Virus record (IMG/VR): IMGVR_UViG_3300021141_000296
Coordinates: 1 to 25,465 of that record
Reading direction: 5' to 3' (one strand)
Length of the DNA stretch: 25,465 nt
From: a virus
Positions 13,126-23,615 of the stretch are shown here, in pieces (the stretch's first letter is position 1; every line of letters starts with the position of its first letter). The notes under the pieces are model-generated. The model was not told the DNA's origin. It saw only the letters and a program-made list of their open reading frames with translations, and did not search any database. A program made the position numbers and the translations under genes.

Positions 13126-14837
13126 TTAATTTTAAAACAATTCGTTGGAAGAATCTTCTTTCGACAGGTAATGCTTTCACTGAAATAAAACTCAATCGTT
13201 CGCCTAGCACTTTAATTGTTGGTGAGAATGGTGGTGGTAAATCCACTCTGCTCGATGCTCTTTGCTTTGGATTGTTTGGTAAACCTTTCCGTAGTATTAA
13301 TAAACCACAACTGTTGAATTCAATCAATAAGAAAAACCTTCTGGTTGAAATTGAGTTTGATATTGGCGGTAAAGATTATAAGATTATTCGTGGTATTAAA
13401 CCTAACATCTTTGAGATTCAATCTGGTGGTGAAGTAATCAATCAGGATGCTGCTGCTCGTGATTACCAGAAGTATCTCGAGGAATCAGTTCTCAAACTTA
13501 ATTACAAGTCGTTTACTCAGATTGTTATTCTAGGGTCAGCATCATTCACACCATTCATGCAGTTGCCACCATTTGTTCGTCGTGAAATTATTGAGGACAT
13601 TCTTGATATTCAAATCTTCACGACAATGAATACTGTTCTGCGTGACAAGATGAACGAACTTAAAGACAGTCTCCATGATGCTGACAGTAAACTGGAAGTC
13701 CTAAAGCAGAAGGCAACCATTCAGAAAGAGTATGTCGATACGCTTGAAGCAAACAAAGAGAAGAGAGTTGATGAAATATTGGGGCGCATTGACGAGGGCG
13801 AAAGGCAGATTGAGACTCTTACCAATCTCACCAAGGACTTGGAGGTGGAGAAAGTCTCTGTTGAAGAAACCCAAAAAAGTCTCGGAGATCTCGTCACTAA
13901 GCAAAAGAAACTCGAATCTTTTAAAACCAAGTTTTCCACCCAACTCCGAGATCTCAAAAAAGAGATTTCGTTCTACAATGAAACAGATGAATGTCCGACG
14001 TGTCAACAAGGCATTGCTCACGATCATAAAGAAACCATCGTATCATCCAGACAAGAGAAAATCGAAGAACTATCTTCGGGAATGGATAAGTTACAAGAAG
14101 AGTTTACAAAACTTGAGGAACTTATCGCGGAAAATGAAACTCTTTCCGAAGAGATTTCAGGATTGAACAAAGAGATTATCGCTAACAATAATGAGATGAT
14201 TGTCCAACAGCGTCTAATCCAAGCACTAAATCTAGAACTGAACGACATCACTACTAAGACTGCAGATATTGATGAGGAAAAGAAGAAACTCAAGTCATAT
14301 GCCAAGGAAGTTCTAACACAGAACGAAGAGAAGGCGAGACTGAATGAAGAAAAGCATTACATGGAAGTTGTCTCGACGCTGCTCAAAGACACTGGTATTA
14401 AGACTAAGATTATTCGTCAGTATCTTCCAGTTATCAATAAGTTGGTGAATAAATATCTACAAGCAATGGACTTCTTCGTGCAGTTTAATCTTGATGAGAA
14501 GTTTGATGAAACTATCAAGTCTCGGCATCGTGATGACTTTAGTTATGCTTCGTTCTCAGAAGGTGAAAAGCAACGTATCGACTTGGCGCTTCTCTTTACC
14601 TGGAGAACAATTGCTAAGATGAAGAACAGCGTAGCAACTAATCTGCTTATTCTAGATGAGGTGTTTGACTCCTCGTTGGATAATAATGGCACCGATTATG
14701 TTATGACATTGCTTGATACTGTGGGCGAAGATACTAATGTGTTTGTTATCAGTCACAAGGGTGATCAACTGTTTGATAAGTTCCGTAGTTTGATTAAGTT
14801 TGAAAAGAAAAATAATTACAGTGAAATGGTGGTATAA
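13122..14837 (+). CDS. 46: Recombination nuclease ATPase subunit (gp46/SbcC/Rad50-like)
   Basis: ABC/SMC-type ATPase partner of gp47. The 571-residue product (T4 gp46 is 560) contains Walker A GENGGGKS (34-41), long coiled-coil arms (about 180-285 and 300-430) separated by a zinc-hook CPTC (C291/C294), the ABC signature FSEGEKQ (478-484) and Walker B LLILDE (508-513) followed by the D-loop-type SLDNNG. It starts within the gene 47 stop (ATGA) and ends in TAATG with def, so 47-46-def are translationally linked. The architecture is complete. Confidence 0.96.
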   Translation: MINFKTIRWKNLLSTGNAFTEIKLNRSPSTLIVGENGGGKSTLLDALCFGLFGKPFRSINKPQLLNSINKKNLLVEIEFDIGGKDYKIIRGIKPNIFEIQSGGEVINQDAAARDYQKYLEESVLKLNYKSFTQIVILGSASFTPFMQLPPFVRREIIEDILDIQIFTTMNTVLRDKMNELKDSLHDADSKLEVLKQKATIQKEYVDTLEANKEKRVDEILGRIDEGERQIETLTNLTKDLEVEKVSVEETQKSLGDLVTKQKKLESFKTKFSTQLRDLKKEISFYNETDECPTCQQGIAHDHKETIVSSRQEKIEELSSGMDKLQEEFTKLEELIAENETLSEEISGLNKEIIANNNEMIVQQRLIQALNLELNDITTKTADIDEEKKKLKSYAKEVLTQNEEKARLNEEKHYMEVVSTLLKDTGIKTKIIRQYLPVINKLVNKYLQAMDFFVQFNLDEKFDETIKSRHRDDFSYASFSEGEKQRIDLALLFTWRTIAKMKNSVATNLLILDEVFDSSLDNNGTDYVMTLLDTVGEDTNVFVISHKGDQLFDKFRSLIKFEKKNNYSEMVV

Positions 14838-15352
14838 TGGAATTACTTAAATTTACAGACCCTGCTTTGCGCAAGGTTCCAGAAATATTTGACTTTGAAA
14901 ATGCAAATGCACAGGAACTCGCCGATACTTTGTGGGAAGAATGCCGTCGCCTACAGGGACTTGGACTTTCTGCCAATCAGGTTGGTATCGACTCTAAGGT
15001 TTTTGTGATGGGATCTGATGAAACGAATCGTAAGAATGTTTTTAATCCTCAAGTAGTTTCTGTCTCCAAGGATACAGAACTTGCACGGGAGGGTTGCTTA
15101 TCATATCCTGGATTGTGGTTGTCTGTAAAACGCCCTAAGCAAGTTACTCTTTCATATCAAACAGTTGATGGAACCCATGTTGTGGAAACTTTTGTTGGTC
15201 TTCAAGCGAGGATCGCCCAGCATGAATTTGATCATATGGAAGGATTGAATTTCTCTGATCATGTATCACAGTTGAAACTCGATATGGCACTCAAGTCTTT
15301 AAACAAACGAGCAAGAAAGTATCTGAGGAAATATGTCAAACACAACCTATGA
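14837..15352 (+). CDS. def: Peptide deformylase
   Basis: Removes the formyl group from the N-terminal Met of nascent proteins, using a bound metal ion. All three family motifs are present: GLGLSANQVG (41-50), EGCLSYPG (85-92, metal ligand C87) and QHEFDH (128-133, ligands H129/H133, catalytic E130). At 171 residues it is of bacterial length and keeps a basic C-terminal helix (about 145-171), which some phage deformylases lack. It starts by a one-base overlap with the gene 46 stop and shares 20 bases with the next ORF. Deformylases are recurrent auxiliary genes of T4-like phages, probably sustaining N-terminal processing late in infection. Confidence 0.95.
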   Translation: MELLKFTDPALRKVPEIFDFENANAQELADTLWEECRRLQGLGLSANQVGIDSKVFVMGSDETNRKNVFNPQVVSVSKDTELAREGCLSYPGLWLSVKRPKQVTLSYQTVDGTHVVETFVGLQARIAQHEFDHMEGLNFSDHVSQLKLDMALKSLNKRARKYLRKYVKHNL

Positions 15353-15698
15353 TTTTGGATTCACATTTGAAGATCCAATCGAAGTAAACAATCCAACAGC
15401 AACAACCACACAAGTAACAGTTGATACTGGTGATCTCAAAGATGAGATTATGGCAAAACTTTACGACATCGAGTCTCGCATTCTGACTGCAGACCAGTCA
15501 CCAATGATCTCTGAACACAAACGACTCGTTGAAATGGAAGTATCAGAGAAACTAAAACAAGTCGAAGATCTGATTCTTCCCTTACTTTACAACCTGATGA
15601 AGAATCCTGAGAAGGAGTATATTCATTGGCCAAACAGGATACCAATTATTGATGCACAAATTGACAAAATCACCGCGATCACGCGACACTATGAGTGA
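15333..15698 (+). CDS. Conserved hypothetical protein between def and clpP
   Basis: One hundred and twenty-one residues; GAGG a few bases before ATG 15333 supports a start inside the end of def. The first 45 residues are polar and Thr/Asn-rich. About 48-85 is helical. The C-terminal segment 'LILPLLYNLMKNPEKEYIHW' followed by PNR and a helix (about residues 81-116) is the most conserved-looking part and resembles small ORFs of unknown function in marine T4-like phages. No catalytic motif. It overlaps the clpP-like start by 8 bases. Confidence 0.75.
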   Translation: MSNTTYDFGFTFEDPIEVNNPTATTTQVTVDTGDLKDEIMAKLYDIESRILTADQSPMISEHKRLVEMEVSEKLKQVEDLILPLLYNLMKNPEKEYIHWPNRIPIIDAQIDKITAITRHYE

Positions 15699-16299
15699 GA
15701 ATGACCTGCCCTTTTTTCCCAAACCTAAGTTCTTCCAGCAACCAGTAGCAACTGCTGTAACATTTTATCTCTGTGGTGAAATTAAACCAGCGGAAGATTA
15801 TGTTGAATGGTTCCAGATTCTCCGAGCAGCAGGTGAAACAGATATAATCTACATTCGCATTAATAGTGAAGGTGGTGACTTGTTCTCTGCTTTACAACTG
15901 GTTCGTGCGATGCAGGAATCAAATGCCACTATCGTCTGTTCGGTTGAAGGTATTTGTATGAGTGCTGCGACTTTGATATTCTTATCGGCAGACAGGTTCG
16001 AACTCTCTGACCACACCATGTTCATGTTCCACAATTATTCCAGTGGCACAATCGGTAAGGGTGGTGAGATGTATGATCAAATCACACACTTCAGGTCTTG
16101 GTCAGAAAAATTGTTCGACTCATTCTATAAGGACTTCTTGACTCCTGAAGAAATTAAGTCGATGCTTGACAACAAGGATATCTGGTTGGATGCCGACGAG
16201 GTCGCGAAGCGTCTAGAGAAGCGTATCGTGGCACAAGATCCGCCAGAAGAAACTCAACAACCAAAACGTGCAAGAAAAAAACCAGTAACGAATAAATAG
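15691..16299 (+). CDS. ClpP-like serine protease
   Basis: ClpP/crotonase-fold protease of 202 residues. The candidate catalytic triad is Ser91 in GICMSAAT, His114 in FMFHNY and Asp163 in NKDIWLDADEV, and the RINSEGGDLFSALQLVRAM block (about 56-74) is the ClpP substrate-strand region. The frame is open upstream to a TTG at 15649, but ATG 15691 is chosen because it overlaps the previous stop by 8 bases and starts a normal ClpP N-terminus. No good Shine-Dalgarno is present, so coupling is likely. The basic C-terminal tail (about 180-202, rich in Lys/Arg/Pro) is unusual for ClpP. No ClpA/ClpX partner is encoded here. It could work with a host unfoldase or as a stand-alone peptidase. Confidence 0.88.
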   Translation: MSENDLPFFPKPKFFQQPVATAVTFYLCGEIKPAEDYVEWFQILRAAGETDIIYIRINSEGGDLFSALQLVRAMQESNATIVCSVEGICMSAATLIFLSADRFELSDHTMFMFHNYSSGTIGKGGEMYDQITHFRSWSEKLFDSFYKDFLTPEEIKSMLDNKDIWLDADEVAKRLEKRIVAQDPPEETQQPKRARKKPVTNK

Positions 16300-16945: not shown

Positions 16946-16974
16946 TTGACATTTCATTCGTTTTATAGTAGAAT
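16946..16974 (+). promoter_or_regulatory. Sigma70-like promoter for the small secreted protein
   Basis: TTGACA (16946-16951) in the context AGGGCTTGACA, a 17-base spacer, TAGAAT (16969-16974). It lies four bases after the stop of the HAD-like gene and 23 bases before ATG 16998. Confidence 0.85.
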
Positions 16975-16997: not shown

Positions 16998-17345
16998 ATG
17001 ATTAAGAATATTGTTTCAAGTTTGATTGCTCTCGCTGTGATTGCAACTCCTGTTGCTGCTGAAGCACGTCATCGTGATGGTAATGGTTGGGAACAAGGCA
17101 GGAATGATCGCCAACATAGACGTTCGCGTATTAGCACTGGTGAGGCAATCGCTATCGGCGTAGGTGCCTTCATCCTTGGTGCTGCTGCAAGTCGCAGACA
17201 ACCCGACGAACGTGCGACCGATCGCGAAGTCTTTGAGCGCGAATATGATTATCACTATCGTCGTCCTGTCTGCCGTGAAATTTTTACCAGCGGTGTAGAC
17301 AGATATGGTGACTACTACGAAAAGCGCATCACCCGCTGTAATTAA
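16998..17345 (+). CDS. Small exported, Arg-rich protein
   Basis: One hundred and fifteen residues. The first 21-22 form a classic Sec signal (Lys near the N-terminus, hydrophobic IVSSLIALAVIATPVA, cleavage probably after AAEA or VAA). The mature part is rich in Arg/His/Asp. A second hydrophobic, glycine-rich stretch (AIAIGVGAFILGAAA, about 50-64) resembles glycine-zipper segments of outer-membrane-associated proteins. Two cysteines near the C-terminus (CREIF and ITRC) could form a disulfide in the periplasm. AAGGAG (16985-16990) gives a strong start. Own promoter, single-gene unit. The look is of a bacterial periplasmic protein, perhaps host-derived; no function is assigned. Confidence 0.8.
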   Translation: MIKNIVSSLIALAVIATPVAAEARHRDGNGWEQGRNDRQHRRSRISTGEAIAIGVGAFILGAAASRRQPDERATDREVFEREYDYHYRRPVCREIFTSGVDRYGDYYEKRITRCN

Positions 17346-17370: not shown

Positions 17371-17399
17371 TTGACTTTTGCCTCGTTTCGAGGTAGAAT
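17371..17399 (+). promoter_or_regulatory. Sigma70-like promoter for the VWA gene, with spacer palindrome
   Basis: TTGACT (17371-17376) in the context AGGGCTTGACT, a 17-base spacer, TAGAAT (17394-17399). The last 13 bases of the spacer, CCTCGTTTCGAGG (17381-17393), are a perfect palindrome around TTT, placed where a repressor or activator could act. Confidence 0.85.
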
Positions 17400-17427
17400 G
17401 AAATATATTAATTGATGAGGTTTCGTG

Positions 17428-19677
17428 ATGTCTATTTCCCATAAGTCTACCCTTGCTAAATTGCTCGCTACTGAGAACCTTCGGATTGAACACCAGAAGG
17501 TTCCGACCGCGATGTTCGACCTGAAGAATCGCACCCTTATCCTCCCTATCTGGAAAGATATGTCGACCGACCTTTATGACCTGCTTATCGGTCATGAGGT
17601 TGGTCACGCATTGTTCACACCTGCTCAGGGTTGGCACGGTGAAATCGATCAGCGTGGTATGGGCATCAAGTCCTTCCTCAACGTTCTTGAGGATGCTCGT
17701 ATTGAGCGTAAGATTAAGGACAAGTTTCCTGGTATTCGTAAGAACTTCTTCGCTGGTTATCAGGAATTGTTCAACAACAACTTCTTCGGCGTTAAGGGAT
17801 ATGACCTCAGCAAGTTGCGTCTCATTGACCGTATCAACCTGCATTACAAGGTTGGTTCCTTACTTGCTGCTCCCTTCAGCGACGATGAGCGTAAGTATCT
17901 TGCTCGCGTTGATGCGTTGGAAACATGGGATGATGTTGCTACGCTCGCAGTAGAACTCTACGAACTCGCTAAGTCTGAACCTGAGTATGACTTTGATTCG
18001 TCAACGTTCATGGGTGAAATGATGGAAACATCAGGCGACGATGATGCTGCTGGTGATGTTGATAAGTGGATTTCAGAAATGGATTCTGACCAGTCAACTG
18101 GTGATAGTGCCGCCGATAGCGATGGTGAAACTGCTGATAAACCTGCCGACGATGCTGATGCTGATTCTGGTAAGAATGCTGCTGGTGATACCGACTCTGA
18201 CGGTGACACTGGCGAAGACGATGCTGATGCTGGTAAACCTAAAACTGGTGTGAAACTTCCAGGTTCGAACGATGTGCCAGTGTTCGATGAAGACCCTATT
18301 TCTATCACTGATCAGATGTTCCGTGAGAAGGAAGAAGAATTCATTGACTCGAAGTCGCGTCCGTATGCTTATGGCATTCTCCGCAAGGTTGAACTCAAGG
18401 ATTATGTCATTCCTATGGATTGGGTCATTGATAACATGCGTCCTACAGTATACAGTGATCGCTGGTTGACAAAAACAATTGACTATGATACGACTGCCAA
18501 CGAAGTTTATTCTGACTTCCGCAACAAGAACCAGAAGTATATCAACCTGATGGTGCAGGAATTTGAACTGCGTCGTCGCGCTTCTCAGTTCGCTCGTGCG
18601 CAGGTTGCTAAGACTGGTCGCCTAGACGTTGACCGTGTGTGGGCACATAAAATTAGCGAAGATTTGTTTGCTCGTAACACAGTTGTTCCTGATGGCAAAA
18701 ACCATGGTATGCTTTTGTTCCTCGACATGTCTGGTTCTATGGCATCGAACATGCGTGGCACGATTGAGCAGTTGGTAACTCTCATGATGTTCTGCCGCAA
18801 GGTTCGTATCCCATTTGAAGTCTATGGTTTCACCAACAACGGTATGATCACTGACAGTTTCCCCCTAGGAAATGAAATGCGCGACCGTCGCGATGCTGAG
18901 GCACGAGCAAGTGGCAAAGAACTTGTCATTGGTGACAACTCGTTCAATCTACTACAGTTCCTTTCCGATAATTGTTCTTCGGGTAAGTTTAATGAGGTAG
19001 TTCGCAATCTTCTTATGTGCGGCATGGGATATGATTATCGTATTCGTCGCAAGAATGAAGAAAAATTCTTCCGCAATTCTAATATCATGGGTCTAGCATC
19101 GACTCCTCTTGAGGAATCAATCATGGTTGCTCGTTCGATTGCTGACAAGTTTCGTGCTAAGAATCGCGTTGAAGTTTTGAACACTATCTTCCTGACTGAC
19201 GGTGATGGTGACGGTAATATCAGCATCCAAGGTTCGCGCTATAGTGCTAACCATGTAAATATCACCGATTCTACCACTGGTGCTGTTACGATCGTTAAGT
19301 ATGATGATAATAATTCGTACCAGATGCAAACTGCACTTCTCAACTTGTATCAGAAGGCAACTGGTTCGCGGACTATCAACTTTTTCATCGCCAGTTACAA
19401 TCAAAAGTGGGCTGCTAAACGTATGCATAACTCTGCCGCAGATTTCGATACGAAGTGGAAAGAGGAATGGAAGCAAAAGTATTTTCACACTAAAAATTCT
19501 TTCGGTTTCAATGACCGCTTCCTGATTCCAGGTGGCGAAGACTTGAGCATCGAGGAAGATGTTCTGGAGTCTGAAGATAATTCTCCTAAGAAACTTCGTC
19601 AAGCATTCAAGAAGTTTCAGAACAAAAAGCAGACCAACCGTGTTCTGTTGAACAAAATGATTCAAGCAGTTGCTTGA
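17428..19677 (+). CDS. Large HExxH + VWA-domain protein (CobT/MoxR-partner-like)
   Basis: Seven hundred and forty-nine residues from ATG 17428 (GAGG at 17417-17420 is 7 bases away; the adjacent GTG 17425 is too close). The N-terminal domain has a zinc-peptidase-like H56-E-V-G-H60 and a downstream NVLEDARIE (about 85-93) that can supply the third ligand. About 190-290 is a long Asp/Ala/Gly/Glu-rich acidic linker. The C-terminal VWA domain has the MIDAS motif D433-M-S-G-S437 and a later LTDGDGDG (D591). This order (HExxH, acidic linker, VWA) resembles partners of MoxR-type AAA+ ATPases; CobT of cobalt chelatase also has an acidic linker plus VWA. The next gene is such an ATPase. No CobN-like chelatase subunit is present, so a cobalamin role should not be assumed. 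The likely role is a chaperone or protease module. Confidence 0.88.
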   Translation: MSISHKSTLAKLLATENLRIEHQKVPTAMFDLKNRTLILPIWKDMSTDLYDLLIGHEVGHALFTPAQGWHGEIDQRGMGIKSFLNVLEDARIERKIKDKFPGIRKNFFAGYQELFNNNFFGVKGYDLSKLRLIDRINLHYKVGSLLAAPFSDDERKYLARVDALETWDDVATLAVELYELAKSEPEYDFDSSTFMGEMMETSGDDDAAGDVDKWISEMDSDQSTGDSAADSDGETADKPADDADADSGKNAAGDTDSDGDTGEDDADAGKPKTGVKLPGSNDVPVFDEDPISITDQMFREKEEEFIDSKSRPYAYGILRKVELKDYVIPMDWVIDNMRPTVYSDRWLTKTIDYDTTANEVYSDFRNKNQKYINLMVQEFELRRRASQFARAQVAKTGRLDVDRVWAHKISEDLFARNTVVPDGKNHGMLLFLDMSGSMASNMRGTIEQLVTLMMFCRKVRIPFEVYGFTNNGMITDSFPLGNEMRDRRDAEARASGKELVIGDNSFNLLQFLSDNCSSGKFNEVVRNLLMCGMGYDYRIRRKNEEKFFRNSNIMGLASTPLEESIMVARSIADKFRAKNRVEVLNTIFLTDGDGDGNISIQGSRYSANHVNITDSTTGAVTIVKYDDNNSYQMQTALLNLYQKATGSRTINFFIASYNQKWAAKRMHNSAADFDTKWKEEWKQKYFHTKNSFGFNDRFLIPGGEDLSIEEDVLESEDNSPKKLRQAFKKFQNKKQTNRVLLNKMIQAVA

Positions 19678-19684
19678 AAATAAT

Positions 19685-19732
19685 TACCCCGAAACGAAAG
19701 AAAGGGCTTGACTTTTTCCACGTTTCGGGGTA
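19685..19732 (+). promoter_or_regulatory. Inverted repeat flanking and entering the AAA+ promoter
   Basis: TACCCCGAAACG (19685-19696) and CGTTTCGGGGTA (19721-19732) are perfect 12-base inverted arms separated by 24 bases. The right arm covers the end of the promoter spacer and the first two bases of the -10; the left arm lies just upstream of the -35. A dimeric or looping repressor site is plausible. As RNA it could also form a stem at the end of the VWA message, but no T-run follows. Confidence 0.8.
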
Positions 19733-19736
19733 TAGT
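19708..19736 (+). promoter_or_regulatory. Sigma70-like promoter for the AAA+ gene
   Basis: TTGACT (19708-19713) in the context AGGGCTTGACT, a 17-base spacer, TATAGT (19731-19736), lying between the VWA and AAA+ genes and embedded in a 12-base inverted repeat. Confidence 0.87.
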
Positions 19737-19769
19737 GGTTATATTGATTGATGATGTGAGGATATTTTT

Positions 19770-20909
19770 ATGATGAATCGTGATGCTTTGGTTGAGTACC
19801 TTTCTAACAACAACACCAACGGTGGTGTTTTCCGTAAACGCGACGTTGTCGCCGCTGCCCAATCCCTCGGTATGAAATATCCTGGTTGGATTTTTCAGCG
19901 TGACCGTATGATCAAGCGTGGTACTTATGACTTGTCGCCGCTGATGGCAGGTGCTTCTGCGTCTGTCACACAACTCCCCGTTGCTGCCCCCAAGATGGTC
20001 ATCCAACCTAAGTTGCAGACTGTCGTTGACAACCTTGTTCCGTCGGTTGATCCGACCTATGTTCCATTCGGTTTCTACAAGGATCTGACGAAGGTTCTGA
20101 AGTCTTTGAACTTCTATCCGACGTTCATCTCTGGTCTTTCTGGTAACGGTAAGACCACCATGGTTGAACAGGCATGCGCTAAGTTGAAGCGCGAATGTCT
20201 GCGTGTCAACATCTCGATTGAAACTGATGAAGATGACCTGATTGGTGGTAACACCCTCGTTGACGGTAACGTTGTTTACCGCGAAGGTCCAGTTCTCACT
20301 GCTATGAAGCGTGGTGCTATCCTCATCCTCGACGAAATCGACCGTGGTTCGAACAAGATGATGTGCCTTCAGGCAATTCTTGAAGGTAAACCATACTTCA
20401 ATAAGAAGACTGGTGAGACCGTTCACCCGAAGCGTGGTTTCAACGTCATCGCCACTGCTAACACCAAGGGTAAGGGTTCAGACGACGGTAAGTTTATGTC
20501 TGCCCAGATTCTCGACGATGCGTTCCTTGAGCGTTTCGCCATCACTGTCGAGCAGGAATATCCCTCGCTGAAGATTGAGAAGCAAATTATCCTCAACAAG
20601 ATGGAAAAGGTCGACAGTGTTGATGACGAATTTGCCGACAAGTTGGTAACATGGGCGGATATTATCCGTAAGACCTTCTATGAAGGTGGCGTCGAGGAAC
20701 TCATCTCGACTCGTCGTCTCGAGCACATCGTAAATGCTTTCGCTATGTTCGGTTCGCGTTCTAAAGCAATCGAACTCTGCGTCAATCGCTTCGACTCTGA
20801 CACCAAGAGTGCTTTCCTAGACCTCTATAAGAAGGTTGACGATGGCACCAATGATGTAGTCGAAAATGATGACGCATATTTCAACCAAATGGAAGAAGTA
20901 CCATTCTAA
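19770..20909 (+). CDS. MoxR/CobS-like AAA+ ATPase
   Basis: Three hundred and seventy-nine residues; GAGGA (19758-19762) precedes ATG 19770, and a second ATG follows at once. Residues 1-60 look like a small winged-helix or other nucleic-acid/protein-binding domain (FRKRDVVAAAQSLGMKYPGW). The AAA+ core has Walker A GLSGNGKT (122-129), a MoxR-type ETDEDDLIGGNTLVDG segment (151-166), Walker B ILILDEID (184-191), sensor 1 in NVIATAN (225-231) and an arginine-finger-like DDAFLERF (249-256). This pattern matches the MoxR clade including CobS. Lying next to a VWA+HExxH gene, it probably remodels a protein target together with it. T4-like phages often have it annotated as CobS; that name should not be read as proof of cobalamin synthesis. 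Confidence 0.92.
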   Translation: MMNRDALVEYLSNNNTNGGVFRKRDVVAAAQSLGMKYPGWIFQRDRMIKRGTYDLSPLMAGASASVTQLPVAAPKMVIQPKLQTVVDNLVPSVDPTYVPFGFYKDLTKVLKSLNFYPTFISGLSGNGKTTMVEQACAKLKRECLRVNISIETDEDDLIGGNTLVDGNVVYREGPVLTAMKRGAILILDEIDRGSNKMMCLQAILEGKPYFNKKTGETVHPKRGFNVIATANTKGKGSDDGKFMSAQILDDAFLERFAITVEQEYPSLKIEKQIILNKMEKVDSVDDEFADKLVTWADIIRKTFYEGGVEELISTRRLEHIVNAFAMFGSRSKAIELCVNRFDSDTKSAFLDLYKKVDDGTNDVVENDDAYFNQMEEVPF

Positions 20910-22284: not shown

Positions 22285-22872
22285 ATGGCAGAGAAGTTTA
22301 AATTTAAAAATAAGTGGGACGACGACACACGCGAAGAGGAACTGCCTGAGATTGTTCCTGCCGTAGTCTTCAAGACCCGTGTCCGTGATGACTCGATTGA
22401 AGGTCCAAACCCATTCCGTTGGGAAGATAAGACAACTTATGATTACTTTGCAGGTAAGCGTGTAGTTCTGTTCTCTCTTCCTGGTGCATTTACTCCAACA
22501 TGTTCGACCTACCAGTTGCCTGGATTTGAAAAGAACTTTGCTGAGTTTAAGGCACTTGGTATCAAGGACATCTACTGTGTATCTGTCAATGATGCCTTCG
22601 TCATGAATTGTTGGGCAAAGGATCAGAAGATCAAGAAGGTCAAGATGATTCCTGATGGTTCGTGTAAGTTTACCGACGCAATGAAGATGGATGTTCACAA
22701 GGACAATCTTGGATTTGGTGTTCGCTCGTGGCGTTATGCATGTGTTGTGAACAACGGTCAGATTGAGAAGTGGTTCATTGAAGGTGATGTTGTCGAGGAC
22801 AACTGCGCCGATGATCCCTATGGTGTAACTTCACCAGAAAATATTCTTGACTGGTTGCGTCAGAACTCGTGA
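22285..22872 (+). CDS. Peroxiredoxin (Prx5 type)
   Basis: Thiol peroxidase reducing H2O2 and organic peroxides. The 195-residue product has the PGAFTPTC motif (66-73, peroxidatic C73), the Prx5 arginine block GVRSWRYA (about 145-152) and the KRVVLFSLPGAF strand. The N-terminal part (VPAVVFKTRVRDDS, then GPNPFRWEDKTTYDYF) matches the Prx half of bacterial Prx-glutaredoxin hybrids, but no glutaredoxin domain follows, so an external thiol reductant is needed. Further cysteines (C98, C109, C127, C152 and one near residue 174) leave the resolving residue open. It sits in the replication clamp operon between 45 and 44. Its TGA overlaps the next GTG start (GTGA). Confidence 0.93.
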   Translation: MAEKFKFKNKWDDDTREEELPEIVPAVVFKTRVRDDSIEGPNPFRWEDKTTYDYFAGKRVVLFSLPGAFTPTCSTYQLPGFEKNFAEFKALGIKDIYCVSVNDAFVMNCWAKDQKIKKVKMIPDGSCKFTDAMKMDVHKDNLGFGVRSWRYACVVNNGQIEKWFIEGDVVEDNCADDPYGVTSPENILDWLRQNS

Positions 22873-23615
22873 TAATTTTACTTACTGGTCATGAAGGTTT
22901 TATTGGACGGAATGCTTTGCGCATTCTGTCCAAGAACCACACTGTTATTCCATTCGAAGGTAATATCTGTGAATGGGATATGTCTAATGATTATGGTGGA
23001 CCAGACGTTGTTTTGCATTTAGCAGCACTCGCTGGTGTTCGTAAGAGTTGGACTGATCCGGAAGGATATTGGAAAGTCAATGTTACTGCATCAAAGCGTA
23101 TATTTGAATGGGCAGATAGTAGACGATTAAAGACGATATATGCATCTTCCTCATCAGTGTATGAGTGGTGGATGAATCCATATGCTACCAGTAAAAAAGC
23201 AATGGAAGAACTTGCACCAGAGGGTTCAACTGGTATGCGATTCCATACAGTCTATGGTCCAGACAGTCGCCCCGACATGTTCTATGATATGATGCTGAAC
23301 GACAAGGTCGAGTATAAGACTGATCATCATCGTGACTGGACTCATGTTGAAGATGTTTGTTCTGCTATTGAAATTCTATTGACTAATCTAAATTATACGG
23401 GTATAGTGGATATTGGATCGAATGAACCGATCTCTGTTAGTGATGTATTAGATGCCTATGGTTATCGAGACATTCCCTTTAAAGATGTTGTTGGTGAGAG
23501 ACATATTACTCATGCCAACATTGATGAAATGCGGAGACTAGGTTGGTCTCCCAAGTATAACATTATGGAAGAAGTGAAAAATGAACGTATCAAAAGAACA
23601 GTTCCTCTGGGTTGA
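22869..23615 (+). CDS. Short NAD-dependent epimerase/dehydratase
   Basis: Extended short-chain dehydrogenase of the nucleotide-sugar epimerase/dehydratase family. It starts at GTG 22869, which overlaps the peroxiredoxin stop by four bases. The Rossmann motif GHEGFIG (7-13) binds NAD(P). The active site has SSSS (93-96) and Y105xxxK109 in NPYATSKK. 'RDWTHVEDVCSAIEILL' (about 155-171) is the conserved C-terminal cofactor-side block. At 248 residues it is about 60-80 shorter than typical family members (about 310-330), mainly because the substrate-binding part and the region before YxxxK are compact. The substrate is unknown; sugar modification of host surface or of phage components is possible. 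It contains an internal promoter and overlaps gene 44 by 35 bases. Confidence 0.88.
   Translation: MIILLTGHEGFIGRNALRILSKNHTVIPFEGNICEWDMSNDYGGPDVVLHLAALAGVRKSWTDPEGYWKVNVTASKRIFEWADSRRLKTIYASSSSVYEWWMNPYATSKKAMEELAPEGSTGMRFHTVYGPDSRPDMFYDMMLNDKVEYKTDHHRDWTHVEDVCSAIEILLTNLNYTGIVDIGSNEPISVSDVLDAYGYRDIPFKDVVGERHITHANIDEMRRLGWSPKYNIMEEVKNERIKRTVPLG
23379..23407 (+). promoter_or_regulatory. Sigma70-like promoter for genes 44-62-regA, inside the epimerase gene
   Basis: TTGACT (23379-23384), a 17-base spacer ending in GGG, TATAGT (23402-23407). The predicted start near 23414 lies about 167 bases before the gene 44 ATG, entirely within epimerase coding sequence. Confidence 0.75.

Follow-up and report, generated by a model that had tools for sequence, protein, structure and literature searches.

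The window analysed here is a 25,465-nucleotide stretch comprising positions 1 to 25,465 of record IMGVR_UViG_3300021141_000296, a 25 kb genome fragment of a T4-like phage. Two adjoining genes in it encode a protein combining a putative metallopeptidase domain with a VWA domain, and a MoxR/CobS-like AAA+ ATPase. The first gene can be read from GTG 17425 (750 aa) or from ATG 17428 (749 aa); residue numbers below follow the GTG start and are one higher than ATG-based numbers. The features of the locus, with the evidence for each, are as follows.

17371..17399, + strand: sigma70-like promoter of the VWA gene, TTGACT-17-TAGAAT (motif, relatives)
17425..19677, + strand: metallopeptidase-VWA protein, phrog_459 "peptidase" (ORF, profile match, conservation)
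17593..17607, + strand: HEVGH, putative zinc site, residues 57-61 (conservation)
17680..17706, + strand: NVLEDARIE, putative third-ligand helix, residues 86-94 (conservation, predicted helix)
18019..18279, + strand: acidic, probably disordered linker, residues ~199-285 (composition, predicted model)
18697..19524, + strand: VWA domain, residues ~425-700, MIDAS D434-S436-S438...T560...D592 (conservation, structure match)
19708..19736, + strand: sigma70-like promoter of the ATPase gene, TTGACT-17-TATAGT, a near copy of the promoter at 17371 (motif, relatives)
19770..20909, + strand: MoxR/CobS-like AAA+ ATPase, phrog_249, 379 aa, ATG start (ORF, profile match, motifs)

Profile searches matched the VWA protein to phrog_459 over its full length (E 3.6e-182) and the ATPase to phrog_249 (E 1.7e-110). 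In all 68 related contigs with room to show it, the ATPase gene lies directly 3' of the VWA gene and in the same orientation; a survey for such co-occurrence had been suggested in an earlier, sequence-only reading of this DNA. Given the profile matches and this adjacency, the observation is not due to chance. In the window and in S-SSM5 alike, the pair sits between gp46 and the sliding clamp gene gp45, so that the window shows both the gp46-peptidase-cobS-gp45 synteny and the full-length profile match to phrog_459/phrog_249. The pair is usually labelled as vitamin B12 genes.

These proteins belong to a kind already described. T4-like cyanophages carry full-length homologues annotated as "peptidase" (phrog_459, T4-GC 146) and "CobS" (phrog_249, T4-GC 150) in the same gp46-gp45 order, with ~28-33% identity to our VWA protein and 50-60% identity to our ATPase. 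The window's clade differs from these in being known from uncultured relatives only and in having a sigma70-like promoter for each gene. A MoxR ATPase paired with a VWA protein bearing an N-terminal metallopeptidase domain was published in 2021 for group 2.2 jumbo phages (ASV44728/ASV44729; PMC7824862), and that pair, compared by description only, has the same architecture. The sequence-only reading had called the locus the best candidate for an undescribed system, which these precedents contradict. ATPase relatives in Kayvirus (Staphylococcus) were rejected as instances of the same pair, as the locus examined held no HExxH partner.

In the N-terminal domain of the VWA protein, H57, E58 and H61 are invariant in alignments of 47-49 T4-like representatives, and equally so in a set of 45 sequences that includes chromosomal mobile-element homologues with 20-27% identity in this domain. 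N86, E89, D90, R92 and I93 are invariant in the same alignments, with E-D-x-R-I-E kept across the 45 sequences. The sequence-only reading had staked its peptidase on conservation of the His and Glu residues, and this holds both in the phage's own clade and among distant homologues. In predicted models, HExxH lies on helix 48-64 and E89 on helix 79-100. The N-terminal domain model (pLDDT 87.7, pTM 0.84) gave zincins as all nine of its top PDB matches in a Foldseek search, including jannalysin, abylysin, selecase and ArdC, each match being weak (E 0.1-0.9); the fold search thus points weakly to a zincin. A Pfam scan of the VWA protein returned no match above cut-off, and a sequence search of the family profile against solved structures gave only two insignificant matches, in and around the acidic linker. 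Judged from conservation, the zinc-peptidase site is apparently intact, and the putative peptidase is probably active. Pseudomonas phage hairong and Stenotrophomonas phage ANB28 have lost HExxH and keep the pair itself, so that some lineages seem able to do without the peptidase activity.

The remaining elements noted earlier in the 749-residue version of this protein are likewise present. The linker contains 27 D/E against 6 K/R in residues 201-285, and AlphaFold2 assigns pLDDT <50 to residues 198-285. In the VWA domain, DMSGS occupies residues 434-438, and D434, S436, S438, T560 and D592 are all invariant, giving a full DxSxS-T-D MIDAS. The best solved-structure match of this domain is the NorD VWA domain in NorQD (9qh6, E 3.5e-4). 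The ATPase has largely conserved motifs (Walker A GLSGNGKT, Walker B ILILDEID, sensor 1, LERF and STRR), including those of arginine-finger and sensor 2 type, and matches Pfam AAA_5 (E 9.5e-18) and, above cut-off, CbbQ_C. By these motifs it is a MoxR-class AAA+ protein with intact sites, as had been read from the sequence, and the extra N-terminal part noted there is a poorly conserved segment of about the first 85 residues.

We then asked how the pair relates to the cobaltochelatase CobS-CobT-CobN. Published readings of the VWA protein contradict each other: PMC7824862 describes a metallopeptidase, and a second 2021 paper (PMC8651126) takes the cyanophage protein for a CobT that had been "mistakenly annotated as a peptidase". 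On the latter view, found also in much cyanophage ecology, viral CobS and CobT borrow the host's CobN and yield more cobalamin, for instance for ribonucleotide reductase. The relationship is real: the ATPase and the N-terminal and VWA regions of CobT are distantly homologous to the phage proteins, with profile comparisons against CobT giving E 4e-7 for the T4-like VWA family (32 alphaproteobacterial CobTs, residues ~35-137) and E 1.7e-31 for the mobile-element family, and CobS is the best named NCBIfam model for the ATPase. The ATPase nevertheless scores 89.3 bits against the CobS equivalog TIGR01650, whose cut-off is 558.55, and the VWA protein has no match to the Pfam CobT model PF06213. An IncC plasmid homologue passes that model barely (27.6 bits, cut-off 26.1), which makes the CobT relation a distant one. 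CobTs lack HExxH at the aligned place, where the profile alignment puts "RGxxDxxAL" opposite the invariant phage motif. A CobT "HDxxxH" that we had paired with HExxH by eye was discarded on the same alignment, and an HExxH in one CobT (L142) was left uncounted because it appears to lie 5' of the true start, in a spuriously extended reading frame. CobN was found in none of 14 related or source records searched (including S-SSM5, S-CREM2, Rhizobium phage N1_15 and IncC pVC211), the window's own genome being represented by 25 kb only; its host may encode a CobN. Homologues also occur on elements of enterobacteria, which are not known to use CobN.

The search for zinc-peptidase and CobT relatives that had been suggested earlier thus gave weak zincin matches and a CobT homology that is genuine, though distant. 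Taken together, these results favour the peptidase over the CobT reading of the VWA protein. In keeping with the earlier preference for a chaperone or putative protease, which the invariant site residues, the CobN searches and the low CobS score support, we are fairly confident that the pair is a remodeller and not a cobaltochelatase; the chelatase reading itself we regard as very unlikely. In a tree, the HExxH-less CobT nests among HExxH-bearing mobile-element proteins, on long branches and with a midpoint root. That root is a guess, as is the direction of HExxH gain or loss it implies.

Each gene has its own promoter, as had been claimed, and the class of these promoters bears on function. 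The spacer of the promoter at 17371..17399 contains the inverted repeat CCTCG-TTT-CGAGG. The window holds 12 copies of the pattern TTGAC-N18-TANNNT, where 1.5 would be expected. Of the 10 nearest relatives that allowed the check, 9 keep a sigma70-like site 41-59 nt 5' of the VWA gene. Late TATAAATA boxes precede the sheath, scaffold, capsid and tube genes of the phage by 30-40 nt, whereas none was found before the pair in the window, or in relatives before any of 76 VWA genes or 77 ATPase genes. The pair has early-type promoters, unlike the virion genes, which makes a role in virion assembly less likely. In favour of such a role, phage head proteins undergo proteolytic processing. An assembly chaperone that processes structural proteins has been proposed for the jumbo-phage pair (PMC7824862), and that paper cites a report of a peptidase-less MoxR-VWA pair in tail assembly of an archaeal virus. 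Besides the promoters, two observations speak against such a role: the phage encodes its own prohead protease, separate from the pair, and HExxH homologues occur on conjugative plasmids, which make no virions. We consider virion assembly unlikely, and the virion target allowed for in the sequence-only reading is weakened by the promoter class and the plasmid homologues.

The plasmid homologues are part of a wider mobile-element family that matches the phage VWA family by profile (E 2.9e-27). Proteins of IncC and Pseudomonas plasmids and of chromosomal mobile elements share HExxH, N-x-x-E-D-x-R-I-E, the linker, the MIDAS and a CobS-like ATPase; on the plasmids the two genes are split by ssb-bet-exo or DUF3150 genes, unlike the adjoining pair of the window, where no DUF3150 match was found among the proteins scanned around the pair. 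Among the loci we chose, which are not a random sample, homologues lie beside ssb-bet-exo on the IncC plasmid, near an exonuclease or RecT on Pseudomonas plasmids, and near SSB, RecT, YqaJ and primase-like genes on chromosomal mobile elements. SSU5-like, Nickievirus, Stenotrophomonas, Acinetobacter and Zobellviridae elements have DNA polymerase III alpha, primase, ligase or DNA polymerase genes as neighbours. Loci L085, L110, L114, L118 and L119 have no clear recombination neighbour within reach. The phage contexts give a softer signal than the plasmid ones, because replication genes commonly adjoin any early phage gene. For a Vreelandella relative of the VWA gene, 41 genomes of the same family yielded just 2 matches, one of which is weak and covers part of the gene, a distribution as for a mobile element. 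What is new here is that HExxH-bearing homologues sit in replication and recombination modules, both on plasmids, IncC among them, and in several phages that are unrelated. We found no literature linking the IncC module to the VWA/ATPase pair; one IncA/C paper mentions ssb-bet-exo, and neither CobS nor VWA.

Occurrence on both plasmids and phages, early-type promoters and an N-terminal domain that weakly resembles the antirestriction protein ArdC in structure would also suit a protease that removes a host protein, such as a defence component, early in infection. This we judge improbable. In PADLOC, a library of defence and not anti-defence systems, the VWA protein had no match and the ATPase none that was meaningful, and the core status of cobS and the kept synteny in T4-like cyanophages suggest housekeeping instead of a patchy arms-race role. 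An origin in a defence system was set aside on the same search, in which the ATPase had nothing better than weak matches.

We instead propose that the pair forms an ATP-driven machine for remodelling and proteolysis whose target belongs to phage DNA metabolism, a reading to which we give somewhat better than even chances; placing the target in DNA metabolism is, taken alone, an evenly balanced call. Site conservation, the putative zincin-like fold, the NorD-like VWA domain, the 68/68 pairing, the replication and recombination neighbours and the early-type promoters together point to a machine of the replication programme. The model follows NorQ-NorD (PMC13036017), in which a MoxR ATPase is likewise paired with a VWA protein whose linker leads to an N-terminal domain; that system works on nitric oxide reductase, and the description consulted mentions no HExxH peptidase domain. 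By analogy, the ATPase would assemble as a hexamer, the VWA domain would dock in its pore, and ATP turnover would pull the acidic linker and so remodel a MIDAS-bound target, which the N-terminal gluzincin-like domain may then cleave. From context and promoter class, the likeliest target would be a phage or plasmid DNA replication or recombination protein, or an obstructing host protein bound to DNA.

More broadly, this remodelling-protease family may serve replication and recombination in phages and conjugative plasmids by clearing or maturing DNA-bound proteins, and may have given rise to the cellular CobS-CobT through loss of the zinc site, a tentative proposal that we hold possible and rather doubtful. 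In T4-like cyanophages, "cobS" belongs to the core genes; it is regarded as a vitamin B12 gene and serves as a marker for communities (PMC3037559, PMC9983427). Should the pair prove to be a remodelling protease that works in the replication programme, the vitamin B12 reading of its ecology would be wrong, an uncharacterised gene pair of the widespread IncC resistance plasmids would belong to the same machine, and CobT would have a testable origin.

Both reading frames that the sequence-only reading had claimed are present where it placed them, the second encoding a MoxR-class AAA+ ATPase (AAA_5, E = 9.5e-18; CbbQ_C above cut-off). With 750-residue numbering, the VWA protein carries HEVGH at residues 57-61, NVLEDARIE at 86-94 and DMSGS at 434-438.

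17425 (GTG, 750 residues) or 17428 (ATG, 749 residues) to 19677, + strand: VWA protein gene
19770-20909, + strand: ATPase gene, MoxR-class AAA+
17371-17399 and 19708-19736, + strand: promoter-like sites that closely match each other (TTGACTTTTxCCxCGTTTCGxGG...); the spacer contains an inverted repeat

The window, 25,465 bases long, comes from a T4-like phage, and its genes run in the order sheath, tube, portal, prohead protease, scaffold, capsid, UvsY, UvsW-type helicase, late sigma gp55, gp47, gp46, the VWA/ATPase pair, DUF3310, clamp gp45, clamp loaders gp44 and gp62, and regA. Cyanophage S-SSM5 shows a closely similar order, and there the same two genes are named peptidase and cobS. A peptide deformylase gene (14837-15352) lies immediately 3' of gp46, a ClpP-like ATP-dependent protease gene (phrog_1827; 15649-16299) lies in the same region, and redoxin and NAD-dependent epimerase genes (22285-23615) separate the sliding clamp gene from those of the clamp loader. 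A small protein (16998-17345) with a signal-peptide-like N-terminus and no family match above cut-off is encoded between the VWA gene and a HAD-like phosphatase gene; its gene has its own promoter-like site at 16946.

A MoxR protein paired with an N-terminal-metallopeptidase-VWA protein is known from group 2.2 jumbo phages, where virion assembly was proposed (PMC7824862), a two-subunit MoxR system was noted in a Bacillus phage in 2007 (PMC2147016), and cobS is a core gene of cyanophages (PMC3037559). The pair, put forward from sequence as the best candidate for an undescribed system, therefore belongs to an already described kind. In the literature searched, with partial coverage, we found no link of the pair to plasmid recombination modules, no report of site invariance across plasmid modules, none of the site's absence from CobT, and no promoter-class argument.

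The putative peptidase site is strongly conserved. Residues H57, E58, H61, N86, E89, D90, R92 and I93 do not vary in 49 representatives sharing <90% identity with one another; in a 45-sequence set that takes in chromosomal mobile-element homologues at 20-27% identity, P41, H57, E58, H61, T65, N86, E89, D90, R92, I93, E94 and G103 are invariant. The MIDAS residues D434, S436, S438, T560 and D592 are likewise invariant (alignment A1, 47 sequences). An AlphaFold2 model of the first 200 residues (pLDDT 87.7, pTM 0.84) has three strands, a helix (48-64) bearing HExxH and a second helix (79-100) bearing EDARIE. Its best nine Foldseek matches in the PDB are all zincins (jannalysin, abylysin, selecase, ArdC), with probabilities of up to 0.96, yet E-values of only 0.1-0.9. 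For the full-length model (pLDDT 78.1), the best match is the VWA domain of NorD in the NorQD structure (E = 3.5e-4).

The cyanophage protein has been described as CobT misannotated as a peptidase (PMC8651126). Profile comparisons give E = 2.9e-27 between the T4-like and mobile-element families, 1.7e-31 between the mobile-element family and CobT, and 4e-7 between the T4-like family and CobT. A PF06213 search found CobT in 41 of 58 alphaproteobacterial genomes; across 32 CobT sequences, the place aligned to HExxH reads approximately RG-x-x-D-x-x-A-L, with no HExxH, and the E-x-A-R-x-E motif is kept. The sole CobT regex match to HExxH (L142) apparently falls within a spurious upstream reading-frame extension. 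The IncC VWA protein passes the Pfam CobT cut-off while bearing HEAAH. PMC8651126 is thus correct on distant homology and, on these tests, wrong on the peptidase site. On a 48-row tree built with the site's own columns included, HExxH requires three changes, and CobT is placed within a cluster of phage and plasmid proteins that carry HExxH, with root and direction of change unsure. CobN (PF02514) was not found in any of 14 records searched (the window, six related IMG/VR contigs, S-SSM5, S-CREM2, Rhizobium phage N1_15, Gordonia phage Hanem and three plasmids), by a search that detected it in 5 of 14 well-known control genomes; a host genome could possibly supply it.

VWA protein homologues occur in 463 phage records (tblastn), nearly all T4-like cyanophages, and in 455 candidate IMG/VR stretches. 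The ATPase gene lies 3' of the VWA gene on the same strand in all 68 contigs with sufficient downstream sequence (median gap 91 nt). Pseudomonas phage hairong (6846-8924) and Stenotrophomonas phage ANB28 (5846-7831) have lost HExxH and kept a CobT-like/CobS-like pair. In Pseudoalteromonas phage XG4 (unverified record PP712099.1; 5688-9225), both genes are broken across frames, possibly through sequencing errors, and HEVSH and EDIRIE are readable despite the splits.

IncC plasmid pVC211 carries the ATPase gene, then a hypothetical gene, ssb, bet, lambda-type exonuclease, DUF3150 and finally the VWA protein gene; Pseudomonas plasmids carry similar modules, and helicase and toprim genes lie nearby on an IncU-typed plasmid. 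HExxH is present in all four plasmid VWA proteins. Chromosomal loci have RecT, YqaJ, SSB, DUF3150 and primase-like genes among their neighbours. DUF3150 occurs in 11 of 13 of these genomes or records, and on plasmids and mobile elements its gene adjoins the VWA gene (L123, 13743-15020, and similar loci); none of the window proteins scanned near the pair matched it, and we found no paper on the family in partial literature coverage. The pair lies near DNA polymerase III alpha in SSU5, Nickievirus, ANB28, an Acinetobacter element (some also with primase and ligase) and a Klebsiella element, and near a DNA polymerase plus primase or helicase in Zobellviridae. The phages in this set include hairong and ANB28, the two without HExxH.

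The T4 late box TATAAATA occurs six times in the window against 1.06 expected, four of these 30-40 nt upstream of the sheath, scaffold, capsid and tube genes. The pair is preceded not by this box but by TTGACT-17-TANNNT sites, whose inverted repeat is possibly an operator; sites of a similar kind also precede gp45 (21342) and gp44 (23379). Among relatives, the 180 nt preceding each of 76 VWA and 77 ATPase genes contain no late box, and the sigma70-like pattern is present upstream of 46 and 39 of these, respectively.

According to PMC13036017, a finger of the NorD VWA domain inserts into the pore formed by the NorQ hexamer, and twisting and stretching affect the linker that leads to the N-terminal domain; the suggested target-binding site is the MIDAS. 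By analogy, the phage ATPase and VWA protein would act as NorQ and NorD do, with an added domain at the VWA protein's N-terminus that may catalyze cutting. From gene neighbourhood and promoter class, a soft signal in phages, we infer that the target may lie in DNA metabolism.
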